DNA of 28,054 nucleotides. Source: a virus. Both the position numbers and the translations under genes were made by a program. This document shows, piece after piece, positions 6,187-27,389 of this stretch; position 1 is the stretch's first letter, and each line of letters opens with the position of its first letter. The stretch spans positions 1 through 28,054 of IMG/VR virus record IMGVR_UViG_3300025098_000220; one strand, 5' to 3'. The notes under the pieces were generated by a model. It saw only the letters and a program-made list of their open reading frames with translations, was not told the DNA's origin and did not search any database.

Positions 6187-6242
6187 ACGGTATATGCGTG
6201 AGCCGTGGGATTTTGACGCACAGAAAGGTGCAACGCCTTTCT
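6187..6242 (+). ncRNA. Pseudoknotted RNA element, copy 1 (tandem with copy 2)
   Basis: Hairpin A is ACGG/CCGT (6187-6190/6203-6206) with a 12-nt loop. Its loop bases TGCGT (6195-6199) pair with ACGCA (6216-6220), forming a pseudoknot. Hairpin B follows: AGAAAGG-TGCAACG-CCTTTCT (6222-6242). The 7-nt loop TGCRANG and the adjacent AGG/CCT closing bases are shared by all three copies, while stems and pseudoknot change sequence but keep pairing. It lies 27 nt after the helicase stop. I do not match it to a known riboswitch or ribozyme class. Confidence 0.7.
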
Positions 6243-6270
6243 CTTTACTACTGTAAAGATGAACTAAATG

Positions 6271-6330
6271 CGGTTGTAAGCATGAACCGATTCAAAGGAA
6301 TTTGATGCTCAAATAGGTGCAAAGCCTATC
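6271..6330 (+). ncRNA. Pseudoknotted RNA element, copy 2
   Basis: Hairpin A is CGGTT/AACCG (6271-6275/6285-6289). Loop bases AGCAT (6279-6283) pair with ATGCT (6305-6309). Hairpin B is ATAGG-TGCAAAG-CCTAT (6313-6329). It ends 21 nt before the ATG at 6351, with the ribosome binding site AAAGGAG between, so it could control translation of the 6351-7955 gene run. With copy 1 it forms a tandem pair, an arrangement familiar from some riboswitches; alternatively both are 3' processing signals of the helicase mRNA. Confidence 0.7.
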
Positions 6331-6350
6331 CATTTAAAGGAGAAATAAAA

Positions 6351-6563
6351 ATGAAATACGAAAACTTTATGAAAATTACAGATAGATGGTCAGATGATGA
6401 CCGAATAACTTTCTTAATGGAATACCCATTGTGGAATGAAATGGTGATTCGTTTTATTATGCATAAGTGGCGTGATGGTGTAGTTGAAGCAGAACATATT
6501 GCATGGTTCGCTAATGACCATTATATTATGGAAATAACAGATTTGCCGGAGGCAGAAGAATGA
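6351..6563 (+). CDS. Unknown 70-aa acidic protein
   Basis: It begins MKYENFMKITDRWSDDDRI and ends EAEE, with an excess of aromatic residues (WRDGVVEAEHIAWFANDHY). GGAGAAATAAAA precedes the ATG, a leader also found before 8583. It is the first gene after the tandem RNA elements and leads a chain of overlapping genes to 8068. Its stop overlaps the next ATG, and the GGAGGCAGAAGAA coding its last residues serves as the next ribosome binding site. No family is recognised. Confidence 0.75.
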   Translation: MKYENFMKITDRWSDDDRITFLMEYPLWNEMVIRFIMHKWRDGVVEAEHIAWFANDHYIMEITDLPEAEE

Positions 6564-14805: not shown

Positions 14806-15366
14806 ATGAAAAGAAAAATATTGATAATTGGAGCAGGTGGAATTGGGAGTTTTCTAATTCCAATTTTACACAGAGCAGGATTGTATGACATTTCAGTTTC
14901 CGACCCAGATAAGGTGGAGCAAAAGAACCTGTCGTATCAAAACTTTAGGAAAGGTCATGTTGGGCAAAATAAAGCAAGTGTGATGCGAGACGAATATGGT
15001 TCTGTCAATCATTCAAGCCCATACCCAATTCTTGCAGAATCGCAAATGAAAGGGTATGATTTGGTTATTTGTTGTGTTGATAACATTGGGTTGCGACGAA
15101 CCCTTTACAACACAAGCATTAAATGGTTAGACTTGCGGGCGCAAGGTAGGAACGCCGCACTTGTGAGTCATAAAGCAGACCCGAAGATGTATGATATGCT
15201 TTTAGCCGGAGAAGAAGGTTCTTTCAGTTGTCAAGGAGATTCATGGGATGGAACAAATAAGGGTGTTCATTATATGCAAGTCGCAATTGCTGGATTGGGC
15301 GCACAATGGATTCAACGCTGGTTTAACGGCGAAGAAGTTAGAGAATATATGGTGGTGAATGTATGA
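14806..15366 (+). CDS. E1-like ThiF/MoeB-family adenylating enzyme, minimal 186 aa
   Basis: The Rossmann ATP-binding motif GAGGIGSF (residues 9-16), then SDPDKVEQKNLSYQNF (32-47, matching DxDxVxxxNLxxQ), VGQNKA (52-57) and DLVICCVDNIGLRR (85-98, the conserved D-N and Arg) identify an E1-type adenylation domain. It is shorter than MoeB/ThiF (about 250 aa), with no CxxC zinc motif. C142 in GSFSCQGDSWDG lies where an E1 catalytic or thiol-accepting Cys could sit; C89 and C90 are other candidates. It would adenylate the GG end of a ubiquitin-like protein, the 10288 product being the visible candidate. The ATGA overlap with 15363 leads to the JAMM gene. Confidence 0.85.
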   Translation: MKRKILIIGAGGIGSFLIPILHRAGLYDISVSDPDKVEQKNLSYQNFRKGHVGQNKASVMRDEYGSVNHSSPYPILAESQMKGYDLVICCVDNIGLRRTLYNTSIKWLDLRAQGRNAALVSHKADPKMYDMLLAGEEGSFSCQGDSWDGTNKGVHYMQVAIAGLGAQWIQRWFNGEEVREYMVVNV

Positions 15367-15857
15367 GCCGAGGAATAAAATGGACAAAAGAAGAAGAAGA
15401 ATATTTGTTAAAGTTGGAATACTCATCAGAGTTTGATTCAATTGCTAATAAGATTGAAGAAATTTCTGGGAATAGGCGTTCTGCACATGCTACAAAAATG
15501 AAGTGGAAGAAACTTCAAGAAACACTCGTAAAAGAAATCAAAACCTCGATTTATTCATCGGGTTGGGATGAAGAGAATGATTTCTTTTTGTTGGTTAATT
15601 TCTATGAAATGAGCATTGATGAAGTGCGTTCATGGTTTGGTTGTAGTTATGCTGAATGTGCTGGTCGTCTTGAGAAATTGTTTGATAGCACACAACTGTC
15701 TCACATAGAGTTGGTTAAGAAGGCCGCTATGACTGTCCGAGAACGAAAGGAACCCTACACGCCACGGCTTGCCTCAAGCCGCAAGGAGAAGCGTATTATC
15801 GCCAAAATAAACAAACTCCACGACAAACTCATGCACCTCCGAGGTGGAGAAGAATGA
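15363..15857 (+). CDS. 164-aa Myb/SANT-like helix-turn-helix protein
   Basis: IKWTKEEEEYLLKLEYSSEF (residues 5-24) followed by IANKIEEISGNRRSAHATKMKW-type sequence matches the Myb/SANT pattern, with W in helix 1 and RxxxxxxxxxxW in the third helix. A second similar unit begins at SGWDEENDFFLLVNFYEMS, then YAECAGRLEKL. Two tandem domains suggest DNA binding, or protein binding as in SANT. The C-terminal basic helix ends in RGGEE. It lies between the E1-like and JAMM genes with 4-nt overlaps at both ends, so it may regulate or serve the same pathway. Confidence 0.6.
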   Translation: MSRGIKWTKEEEEYLLKLEYSSEFDSIANKIEEISGNRRSAHATKMKWKKLQETLVKEIKTSIYSSGWDEENDFFLLVNFYEMSIDEVRSWFGCSYAECAGRLEKLFDSTQLSHIELVKKAAMTVRERKEPYTPRLASSRKEKRIIAKINKLHDKLMHLRGGEE

Positions 15858-16513
15858 GCAAAAGCGGAGATTGGTATATTCGGGAGAACCCTGAAGATGA
15901 CGATTCGGGATATGATGAATGGTTGATGGAACAAGGCTATCAAGATTGGCTAAAAAATAATGAAAAGGTGAAAGATATGAATTTTGCAGAAAAAATGAAA
16001 GAAGAAAGAAAGAAAATTGTGGAGGCAAGGATTGAAGCATGTCGCTATGTTGAATCAGTGTGGAAAAATATTTGTAAGGAGAATCCTACTAGTGATGATA
16101 AGCATCATATTGTTTCTCTTCACGATGCCATTTGGCACGCTTCAATAAATATTCTTCCTGCTTTTGAGGTTCAAGCAGTTATTGATACGAATGATAGAAT
16201 TTTTGTTTCCACGGGAACATCAGGCTATGTTGATTATTTGACAATTGACCCTTCAACGCTTATTGGGATGAAACTGCCTATCAAGTGTTGGATTCACACT
16301 CACCCATTTGGGGCTGCTTACTTTAGCGGAACAGACTGGAGAACAGTCAATATTTGGGGAGACAACATGGAATGTGCATATGTCCTTGGTAGTGAAATGT
16401 CTAGCAAGGGACACTATGGTTTTTGGGATAAATACGATAAAAACCAATTAGAAATTTATGTAAATGGAGAACACACACAAACACAAAAACAGATAGGAAG
16501 TGAAGAAGAATGA
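15854..16513 (+). CDS. JAMM/JAB-domain metalloprotease (deubiquitinase-like)
   Basis: The JAMM zinc signature is exact: H148-x-H150, seven residues, S158, two residues, D161 (HTHPFGAAYFSGTD), with E105 upstream (AFEVQAVI) as candidate catalytic base. JAB peptidases cleave after ubiquitin-like GG ends or trim precursors. Here the likely substrate is the GG-HY protein at 10288. Residues 1-60 are an acidic, Trp-rich extension. An internal ATG at 15977 has its own AAAGGTGA site and could give a 178-aa form holding the whole peptidase. It ends GSEEE, those codons serving as the next ribosome binding site. Phage tail-assembly JAB proteins are an alternative context, but no tail genes or NlpC domain are seen. 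Confidence 0.82.
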   Translation: MSKSGDWYIRENPEDDDSGYDEWLMEQGYQDWLKNNEKVKDMNFAEKMKEERKKIVEARIEACRYVESVWKNICKENPTSDDKHHIVSLHDAIWHASINILPAFEVQAVIDTNDRIFVSTGTSGYVDYLTIDPSTLIGMKLPIKCWIHTHPFGAAYFSGTDWRTVNIWGDNMECAYVLGSEMSSKGHYGFWDKYDKNQLEIYVNGEHTQTQKQIGSEEE

Positions 16514-25031: not shown

Positions 25032-26246
25032 ATGGAAGAAAAAACTATGAAAGAAATAGAAGCAGGTGCTAAGATTCTTGGTCTTACCACTGAAGAGGCA
25101 AACGCCAAGTTTGCTGAAATTTGTGGTGAAAGCCACATTGAAACGAACAACCCCATCGGTCTTGGGCTATGGAGAAATTATGTTGCTAATGCAAAGCGTT
25201 CTGCTTCAAGCGGAAAGAAGCAGCAGCAACAAAGCGATTCTCTTTTCAAGCCAGCATTCGGATTCTTTTTGTCTCTTGATGCACCAAGAGATATGATGAG
25301 TTGGAACAGAAACAAGGCGAAAGAGGAATTCCTTCGTGATTCCGATAACGCTCTTGAGAATGGGATTGTTGCTGTAGCAACAGAAAATGCTCTTGGGAAA
25401 TTTACCGTTTCCCGTTATTATAACGGAAACTATGAAGAAAAGGTTGTGGAAAACCTACCCGACGGAGCAGAAACTCTTGAAGATGGCCGGATTTATATCC
25501 CTCTTGAAGCCACCGCTACCTACATGAATGGTGGAAAGAACAACAATTACGGCAAGCCCCTTCCAAAGGAACAATTCCGACGAAGCGGTATTTTCTTTGG
25601 TTCTGTTGCCGGTGGAGAAATGCAACCATATTTCTTCTCCTACAAAAACCAAGGAGGAATTGACTTTGCACCAAGCACCTTTGAATGGGTTCATTTCATT
25701 TGTGTCGCAAACGCAAATGGAACGGACATTTACGGTGCAACCGATACGACACTCAAGAGCCTACTCATCAATTCGGAAATTGACCCCGAAGCAGATGCAT
25801 ACCGAGATATGTCTGGCTTCTCTTATGAAGAGTGTTTGAAAGAACACTTTGAAAAGCATATCACTGCTTTGGTTGAAATTGACAAGGCCCATATTATGCT
25901 TCAAAGCAGCCCATCAAAAGAGCGTTTCATCATTACTGATGGAACGGTGTGCAATATGAATATGACACCAACCAAGAACGGAAATCGAATCATCAACATT
26001 ACTGACTTAAATGCCGAAGTGGACTTTGAATCGGATAGCATGACGACTTGCTGGATTCCCGAACACATTAATTTGGATTTCGGGATTGGTTCAACAGTTA
26101 TCGTGATTGGCCGAACAAGCCAAAGAATGGTTGATGGTGAAGCCGAACCGACAACAATCAATGTTGCTGGTGTGCTTTGTGTTGAGCGTGTAGGTTCTCC
26201 TGTTGAATCCGCACAACCCGTGGAGAAAGACTTTGATTGGTTTTGA
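25032..26246 (+). CDS. Probable single-stranded DNA-binding protein, 404 aa
   Basis: The protein starts MEEKTMKEIEAGAKILGLTT and ends VEKDFDWF, an acidic aromatic tail like those of SSB and phage gp2.5/gp32-type proteins that recruit partners. Strand-rich segments (KLGKFTVSRYY-like region near 125; STVIVIGRTSQRMVDG near 355; NVAGVLCVERV) suggest OB folds. A Gln/Ser-rich linker (SSGKKQQQQSD) follows an N-terminal helical part. Position between the clamp loader and a RecA-like ATPase supports an RPA/SSB role, but I see no diagnostic motif, so the call is inferential. GGAAGTGAAAAAAC precedes the ATG. Confidence 0.5.
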   Translation: MEEKTMKEIEAGAKILGLTTEEANAKFAEICGESHIETNNPIGLGLWRNYVANAKRSASSGKKQQQQSDSLFKPAFGFFLSLDAPRDMMSWNRNKAKEEFLRDSDNALENGIVAVATENALGKFTVSRYYNGNYEEKVVENLPDGAETLEDGRIYIPLEATATYMNGGKNNNYGKPLPKEQFRRSGIFFGSVAGGEMQPYFFSYKNQGGIDFAPSTFEWVHFICVANANGTDIYGATDTTLKSLLINSEIDPEADAYRDMSGFSYEECLKEHFEKHITALVEIDKAHIMLQSSPSKERFIITDGTVCNMNMTPTKNGNRIINITDLNAEVDFESDSMTTCWIPEHINLDFGIGSTVIVIGRTSQRMVDGEAEPTTINVAGVLCVERVGSPVESAQPVEKDFDWF

Positions 26247-26273: not shown

Positions 26274-26326
26274 AACCGTGTATATGTGGCGGTTGAATGA
26301 CATACGGATAGGTGCGATGCCTATCG
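26274..26326 (+). ncRNA. Pseudoknotted RNA element, copy 3
   Basis: Hairpin A is AACCG/CGGTT (26274-26278/26290-26294), with the pairing reversed relative to copy 2 (CGGTT/AACCG). Loop bases TATGT (26283-26287) pair with ACATA (26300-26304). Hairpin B is GATAGG-TGCGATG-CCTATC (26307-26325). It begins 27 nt after the stop of the SSB-like gene, the same distance as copy 1 from the helicase stop, and ends about 18 nt before the TTG at 26344, similar to copy 2 before 6351. Confidence 0.7.
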
Positions 26327-26343
26327 TTCAAAAGGTGAATAAA

Positions 26344-26592
26344 TTGAAAGAATTAATCGGAGATAGATTTTTAGTGAAGAAAAATGCATATGTTGTTGAT
26401 TTAGCAAATGTAGATTTTATTACTTATAAAGAAAACGAAAATGAAATGGGGACTTACTGGGTTAAGTTTCATATTGGACAAAAAGAAGCAAGGTATGTCT
26501 GTTATGACCTTGAATCGCTTAGAGATATAATCCAATATTGGACTATGAGTAAGAATTCAAAAACTAGAATAGAAGAAAACAAATTGGTGTGA
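26344..26592 (+). CDS. Unknown 82-aa protein, TTG start after RNA element
   Basis: The frame is open from 26278, but that part is the RNA element. AAAGGTGAATAAA directly before TTG at 26344 marks the likely start ((M)KELIGDRFLVKKNAYVVDLA). It is beta-rich in the middle (TYWVKFHIGQKEARYVCYDL) with a basic helical end. Expression may be controlled by the RNA structure. No family is recognised. Confidence 0.65.
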   Translation: MKELIGDRFLVKKNAYVVDLANVDFITYKENENEMGTYWVKFHIGQKEARYVCYDLESLRDIIQYWTMSKNSKTRIEENKLV

Positions 26593-26597
26593 TAAAC

Positions 26598-27389
26598 ATG
26601 GGACTAACAAATAATAAAGGAAATGCCTTACCAAGCGAAACATTCTTGGAATTGCATAAGAAACAAATGGAGAAGAAAAGAGAGAACAAAAAATCAAGAA
26701 TGGTTTTAGGAATTTGGGGCATTCCCAAATCTGGTAAAACTGGTCTTGCCTTAGATTTTCCTGATAGGAAAATCTATGTTCTTGATTGGGATAGTGGTGT
26801 GGAATCCACATGGATTACTTGCCACGATGCAACAGAAAGAATTGAAGTCTTTGACCCTATTGTTCAAGACAAAGAAGCACAATTGGATATTCACAAGTCC
26901 GAGCAAAACTCAAGAGACTTTGTGAAGTATGTTCATTCAAAGATTGAAGAAGGAGAAAATCCTATCTTTGTTATTGATGGTGTGGACACTTGGTTTAACA
27001 GTTGCATTCTCAAGGTCAATCCTGACCCAACGAAGGTGACGAAAATTATGCCGTTTCAATACGGTGCAAGAAATAAAACATTTGAGGCCCTAATGGTTTC
27101 TATTTATCGTTTGAAGTGTGATGTCATTTACATCACGCACGAATCGGAAAAATATGTGGATAATGTTCCTGTTGGTGTTCAACCTAACTGGCGTGATTGG
27201 GGCGGAAAACTTGAACAAGAGATTCACTGCACCCGAAAGAATATCAAAGGTGAAATGCATTATGTCGCACAATTGGTTGGCTCAAGAACAAATGGAAACT
27301 TGGTGGGAACCAAGTGGACAGTCCGTGAAGGAACTCCACCAAATGTTGTTTGGAACGGTATTCCCGAATTACGGGAGGGTAAAATTTGA
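26598..27389 (+). CDS. RecA-fold ATPase (phage Sak4 / AAA_24-like)
   Basis: After a basic helical start, Walker A WGIPKSGKTGLA (residues 40-51), acid-rich strand YVLDWDSGVES (60-70), Walker B PIFVIDGVDTW (about 117-127) and a sensor-like VIYITHES fit the RecA-like ATPase family common in phages (Sak4-type), used in recombination and ssDNA annealing. The length of 263 aa fits that group rather than full RadA, which has an N-terminal HhH domain. The start at 26598 follows GGTGTGATAAAC. Confidence 0.78.
   Translation: MGLTNNKGNALPSETFLELHKKQMEKKRENKKSRMVLGIWGIPKSGKTGLALDFPDRKIYVLDWDSGVESTWITCHDATERIEVFDPIVQDKEAQLDIHKSEQNSRDFVKYVHSKIEEGENPIFVIDGVDTWFNSCILKVNPDPTKVTKIMPFQYGARNKTFEALMVSIYRLKCDVIYITHESEKYVDNVPVGVQPNWRDWGGKLEQEIHCTRKNIKGEMHYVAQLVGSRTNGNLVGTKWTVREGTPPNVVWNGIPELREGKI

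Follow-up and report, generated by a model that had tools for sequence, protein, structure and literature searches.

Three copies of a pseudoknotted RNA motif of ~55 letters lie in a 28,054-base virus record of IMG/VR, IMGVR_UViG_3300025098_000220 (below, the window, i.e. the whole stretch of DNA analyzed). We propose, with a probability of about 0.5, that the motif constitutes a new family of cis-acting 5′-leader RNA in magroviruses and related Poseidoniales elements, which would control translation of the next gene. Its structure and position are established, and it is from these that we infer the function. Poseidoniales are the Marine Group II archaea, and magrovirus hosts are among the most abundant archaea of the surface ocean; to our knowledge, no magrovirus is in culture. 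The window was assigned to the magroviruses by gene content. It encodes a UvrD-like helicase, a TFB-like Zn ribbon, a cpn60 chaperonin, an RFC-like AAA protein, an ATP-dependent ligase and a Sak4-like AAA_24 protein, and we read the contig as a magrovirus because gene sets of this type are reported for that group of tailed Poseidoniales viruses (PMC10768690).

The pairings that the original prediction had claimed for the three copies (hairpin A, a loop-to-linker pseudoknot and hairpin B) could all be read directly from the sequence, in each case on the plus strand. Copy 1 (6187–6242; descriptor match, 41.2 bits with a covariance model) forms stem A between ACGG at 6187–6190 and CCGT at 6203–6206, with loop UAUA at 6191–6194, the pseudoknot between TGCGT (6195–6199) and ACGCA (6216–6220), and hairpin B (6222–6242) from 6222–6228 and 6236–6242 around the loop TGCAACG. 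Copy 2 (6271–6329; descriptor match, 37.1 bits) pairs CGGTT (6271–6275) with AACCG (6285–6289) around UGUA (6275–6278), AGCAT (6279–6283) with ATGCT (6305–6309), and 6313–6317 with 6325–6329 around TGCAAAG (6318–6324). In copy 3 (26274–26325; 65.4 bits), the corresponding elements are AACCG (26274–26278) and CGGTT (26290–26294) with UGUA (26279–26282), TATGT (26283–26287) and ACATA (26300–26304), and 26307–26312 and 26320–26325 with loop TGCGATG (26313–26319). Sites for AGGTGCRANGCCT in the contig were confined to these three copies, and the same pattern read backwards had none.

From 5′ to 3′, the consensus opens with stem A (4–5 base pairs), whose loop reads UGUA, N4U and then G, GG, UGG or GAA. 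After the 3′ strand that closes stem A, a linker with UG at its end leads to A-N4 and C, and another five letters separate these from GG-UGCRANG-CC. The N4U within the loop of stem A pairs with the downstream A-N4, so that the loop is paired with bases lying 3′ of its own hairpin, the arrangement of an H-type pseudoknot. A conserved C follows the second pseudoknot strand, and then hairpin B, whose stem of ~5 base pairs is capped by the seven letters U-GCR-A-N-G. T-loops are defined by U-GNR-A plus two 3′ bulged letters (PMC2258182), and the loop of hairpin B, judged by its letters, fits this consensus; TGCRANG was present in all pattern matches and in the copies found earlier.

A covariance search had been set beforehand as a test that would refute the motif if relatives held no further copies; the outcome was decisively the opposite, with copies returned in most relatives. 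These relatives comprised 160 loci from two protein searches, in which the hairpin B loop on a stem of at least 5 base pairs occurred 63 times on the gene strand versus eight times on the opposite strand. A descriptor of the whole fold yielded 25 strong matches in 2.3 megabases of relatives versus none in the same sequences reversed. The covariance model itself comprised the two hairpins and left out the pseudoknot, its alignment being seeded with trimmed linkers as linker lengths differ; it recovered copies in most relatives having the site, every one of them on the gene strand. A hairpin upstream of stem A (‘P0’) was tried as a further constant part and rejected, being enriched (14.2 versus 10.8 in shuffled sequences) but heterogeneous and including tRNA T-arms. 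Likewise, the small hairpin CTTTAC-TACT-GTAAAG between tandem copies 1 and 2 (6243–6258, plus strand) is no constant part of the family.

Selection on the RNA structure is supported by compensatory change. We ran an open pattern—an exact match leaving the pseudoknot letters free—over viral contigs, with counts taken over the loci gathered and figures representing lower bounds. Among the matches listed, the pseudoknot was formed in 122 of 125 distinct ones, using 33 different pseudoknot sequences, versus 24% complementarity when strands were re-dealt among family members; the three matches lacking it were one unrelated virus and two apparently mis-registered sequences. The six-letter spacing from pseudoknot to GGUGC, imposed by this pattern, was also kept by nearly all copies found earlier by other means. 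Across an alignment of 60 rows, each of the four variable pseudoknot pairs changed on both sides, and together they were paired in 219 of 219 cells (100%); the whole structure was 96.8% paired versus 71.9% upon shuffling and ≤54% upon sliding. As 24 seed rows of this alignment had been chosen by a descriptor requiring the pseudoknot (the remaining rows being free of that demand), the open pattern serves as the independent test. Ranked by mutual information over the 122 copies (effective number ~32), the top six included the four pseudoknot pairs and one pair of stem B. Copy counts do not equal independent events, because many contigs are closely related and partly redundant. Additional covariation linked the position two letters past the first pseudoknot strand to the letter before UGA (G/A or A/U), a pair that may mark a tertiary contact.

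G-U cells numbered 46 versus a single A-C, a wobble pattern that shows selection on the sense-strand RNA, and linker lengths vary across all three frames, indicating that the motif is not coding. Alignment, open pattern and mutual information thus bear out the originally proposed pseudoknotted fold with full covariation, and as the shape is kept while the letters change, the motif is almost certainly functional. Short copies and partly redundant contigs are what one could hold in favor of chance, coding constraint or a DNA palindrome as its source. Such an origin is barely credible, however, given the retention of the pseudoknot in the open-pattern matches, the lack of strong descriptor matches in reversed sequence, the G-U/A-C asymmetry and the frame-breaking linkers; together, these tests in effect refute it.

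With respect to position, tandem copies 1 and 2 precede a 70-amino-acid gene (6351–6563, plus strand), whose start codon at 6351 is separated from copy 2 by the Shine-Dalgarno sequence AAGGAG (6337–6342, plus strand). Pfam and PHROG gave no match for this gene, whose relatives at loci L004, L005 and L008 are likewise preceded by a motif copy. Copy 3 is located between a 404-amino-acid gene (25032–26246) and the usual target of the motif, here termed gene D (26344–26592, plus strand), which encodes a small protein starting with TTG in the window and ATG in relatives; the Shine-Dalgarno sequence AAAAGGTGA follows the copy at 26330–26338 (plus strand). Downstream of D lies the Sak4-like AAA_24 gene (26589–27389, plus strand), probably in one operon with it. 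For the 122 copies, GCC was 8–35 nucleotides (mostly 18–24) from the start codon, usually with a Shine-Dalgarno sequence in between, and the upstream stop codon was 12–239 nucleotides from the motif. Hairpin B thus ends ~20 nucleotides ahead of the start codon. This sense-strand placement just 5′ of the next gene, tied to its start codon, is that of a cis-regulatory leader. The leader position, the T-loop fit and the wide sharing of the motif are added here to the original account, which held for the structure.

Again among the matches listed, 113 of the 122 copies stood directly 5′ of D, itself 5′ of the Sak4-like gene. The remainder lie before genes of six further groups, in several cases at a second site behind UvrD; with seven different downstream groups in all, the motif behaves as a portable leader. 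Of 36 magrovirus records, 35 carried the motif and the same 35 carried D, the sole exception (G019) having neither; most records held one to three copies, and one 184-kilobase record held five. In genomes G001 and G002, the D leader lacks the motif, which is found behind UvrD instead. At one such site (L446; G001:C1:51700-53200, minus strand), the leader between the 404-amino-acid gene and D spans ~120 nucleotides, contains no motif copy, matches nothing in Rfam and could harbor a structured RNA of another kind.

Beyond magroviruses, 10 of 293 Poseidoniales genome bins contained a motif match at E ≤ 0.001, the weaker of these matches being judged on score and leader context only. Several of these copies lie near genes for ThiF-like, JAB-like and Zn-ribbon proteins, and D was found in none of the ten bins. 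A T7-like RNA polymerase gene occurred on the motif contig in five of the ten, directly before the motif in three (single-subunit enzymes at L434:264-4112, L435:5086-8916, L429:3394-7014 and L433:1695-5210; PF00940 for L434 and L433 at E ~1e-43 or better). Such a polymerase would be unusual in an archaeal element; that it partners the motif was considered and rejected, as none was found in 15 magrovirus genomes. The long neighbor in L436 and L437 looked chromosomal by eye. A stringent pattern run over ~85,000 genomes to look for host copies gave 90 matches, nearly all chance. Convincing copies, with a perfect motif on viral-looking contigs, came from metagenome-assembled genomes of Maricaulis (L379), Altibacter (L416) and Thalassarchaeum (L382), the two bacterial bins (L379, L416) probably containing mis-binned magrovirus pieces; L381, with 4/4 pairs but no leader context, was taken as chance. 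All carriers found thus far are viruses or mobile elements associated with a single archaeal order.

Taken together, the near-fixed distance to the start codon, the sense-strand selection and the variety of targets speak most for translational control of the following gene. Mechanistically, packing of pseudoknot and T-loop, of the kind that T-loops show in tRNA and riboswitches, would create a compact receptor, whose folded state would set ribosome access to the adjacent Shine-Dalgarno sequence. Upon opening of hairpin B, its CCU/GCCU 3′ strand, or the C-rich letters just after it, might pair with the AGG(U) of that sequence. As the two element lineages carrying the motif seem to share mainly their host, the effector probably comes from that host, as a metabolite, a host factor or possibly the ribosome, and a single protein specific to the virus is less likely. 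A more specific idea, which we hold only tentatively, is that Poseidoniales viruses have a new class of riboswitch, with pseudoknot and T-loop as a candidate sensor of a host metabolite that times translation of viral replication-region genes. In favor of translation control, leaders paired with the Shine-Dalgarno sequence somewhat better than shuffled sequences did (9.4 versus 8.1; replicate standard deviation 0.3). Several points weigh against it. The pairing signal is weak and derived from related sequences, and several leaders showed none. The target genes share no known function, and hence nothing points to a ligand; moreover, the constant position could suit an unregulated enhancer equally well.

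Such an enhancer, or a shield of the mRNA 5′ end, would act ligand-free, either docking on the host ribosome with the T-loop mimicking the tRNA elbow or slowing 5′–3′ decay, and thereby raise the output of the next gene. Constant start-codon spacing, varied targets and host-restricted spread are all consistent with it. We nevertheless consider it unlikely, as genomes of ~100 genes usually hold just one to three copies, and both the conservation of unpaired letters and the tandem arrangement before one gene resemble a receptor more than a simple block. Alternatively, a viral protein might use the motif as its translational operator, the simplest candidate being D, which would act on its own leader and on a few other genes, in the way T4 gp32 acts on its pseudoknot (PMC535899). 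The preponderance of D among the targets and the co-occurrence of motif and D in the magrovirus records, including their joint absence from G019, make an autogenous D operator possible in magroviruses. As an account of the motif it is rather improbable: D was not found in the ten motif-carrying Poseidoniales bins, in two genomes (G001, G002) the leader of D is free of the motif, and the predicted fold of D, with scores at background level, is PH-like, suggesting no RNA binding and leaving D without an assigned function.

That the motif might instead process RNA, as a self-cleaving ribozyme or an endonuclease site making mRNA 5′ ends between co-transcribed genes, would agree with its location between co-oriented genes and with copies directly after tRNA genes or an apparent tRNA 3′ part (L203, L043, L046, L030), where tRNA processing would put the motif at a 5′ end. 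We deem this very improbable, since no Rfam ribozyme model scores and the motif keeps its distance from the start codon rather than from the upstream gene.

Turning to neighboring genes, a PDB search by sequence found no relative of D or of the 404-amino-acid protein. The latter, conserved upstream of D, bears an acidic C-terminal tail that ends in DFDWF and resembles that of single-strand-binding proteins, a likeness for which Pfam, PHROG and PDB-sequence searches gave no supporting match. Elsewhere, the window encodes a ThiF/E1-like protein (14806–15366; PF00899, 5e-19) and one with a weak Prok-JAB match (15854–16513) and an HTHP...D motif nearby. This ThiF/E1-like and JAB-like gene pair recurs in the Poseidoniales-bin elements L431 and L434, and in L436 both parts are fused in a single protein.

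If translation control holds, the motif would represent a cis-regulatory RNA of archaeal viruses not catalogued before. A well-supported RNA family present in nearly all magroviruses gives an entry point to their gene control that is open to in vitro tests without culture, its presence in two different element lineages suggests a host signal or host machinery common to both, and the covariance model can be used as a marker for Poseidoniales-associated elements.

Compared with known systems, the general kind, a cis-regulatory leader RNA, is familiar, while the family and its architecture appear new. Rfam 15, whose models capture hairpins and conserved letters but not pseudoknots, returned only tRNAs above threshold in the window and further loci at curated scores and loose E-values, upholding the original view that no known class was at hand; nor was an earlier report found in the literature searched, which covers Poseidoniales viruses in part. 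The suggested likeness to pistol-type ribozymes did not stand. Pistol likewise pairs a hairpin loop with a downstream linker, but the Rfam models of self-cleaving families (pistol, twister, hatchet, hammerhead and others) gave no match, and the layout and context of the motif suit translation control better than cleavage. The manA and wcaG motifs (PMC2864571) are also candidate structured RNAs from marine metagenomes, on marine viruses, yet they are cyanophage or bacterial, differ in structures and genes, and gave no Rfam match to the present motif. SAM-V, SAM/SAH and preQ1 H-type pseudoknot riboswitches similarly place a small pseudoknot with conserved loop letters beside the ribosome binding site; no Rfam model of theirs matches, and the motif differs in lacking metabolic target genes or a known ligand and in having a separate T-loop hairpin between pseudoknot and Shine-Dalgarno sequence. 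The gene 32 translational operator of phages T4 and RB69 (PMC535899) is likewise an RNA pseudoknot 5′ of the Shine-Dalgarno sequence in the leader of a tailed-virus gene, but it has downstream UUAAA/UAAA repeats instead of a T-loop hairpin, is bound by its own gene product and occurs in some T4-like phages, not in archaeal viruses. Finally, the T-loops of tRNA and of the AdoCbl, FMN and TPP riboswitches (PMC2258182) share U-GNR-A, two 3′ bulged letters and a five-pair stem with hairpin B; they represent a structural part rather than a class, and in the present motif this part follows an H-type pseudoknot.
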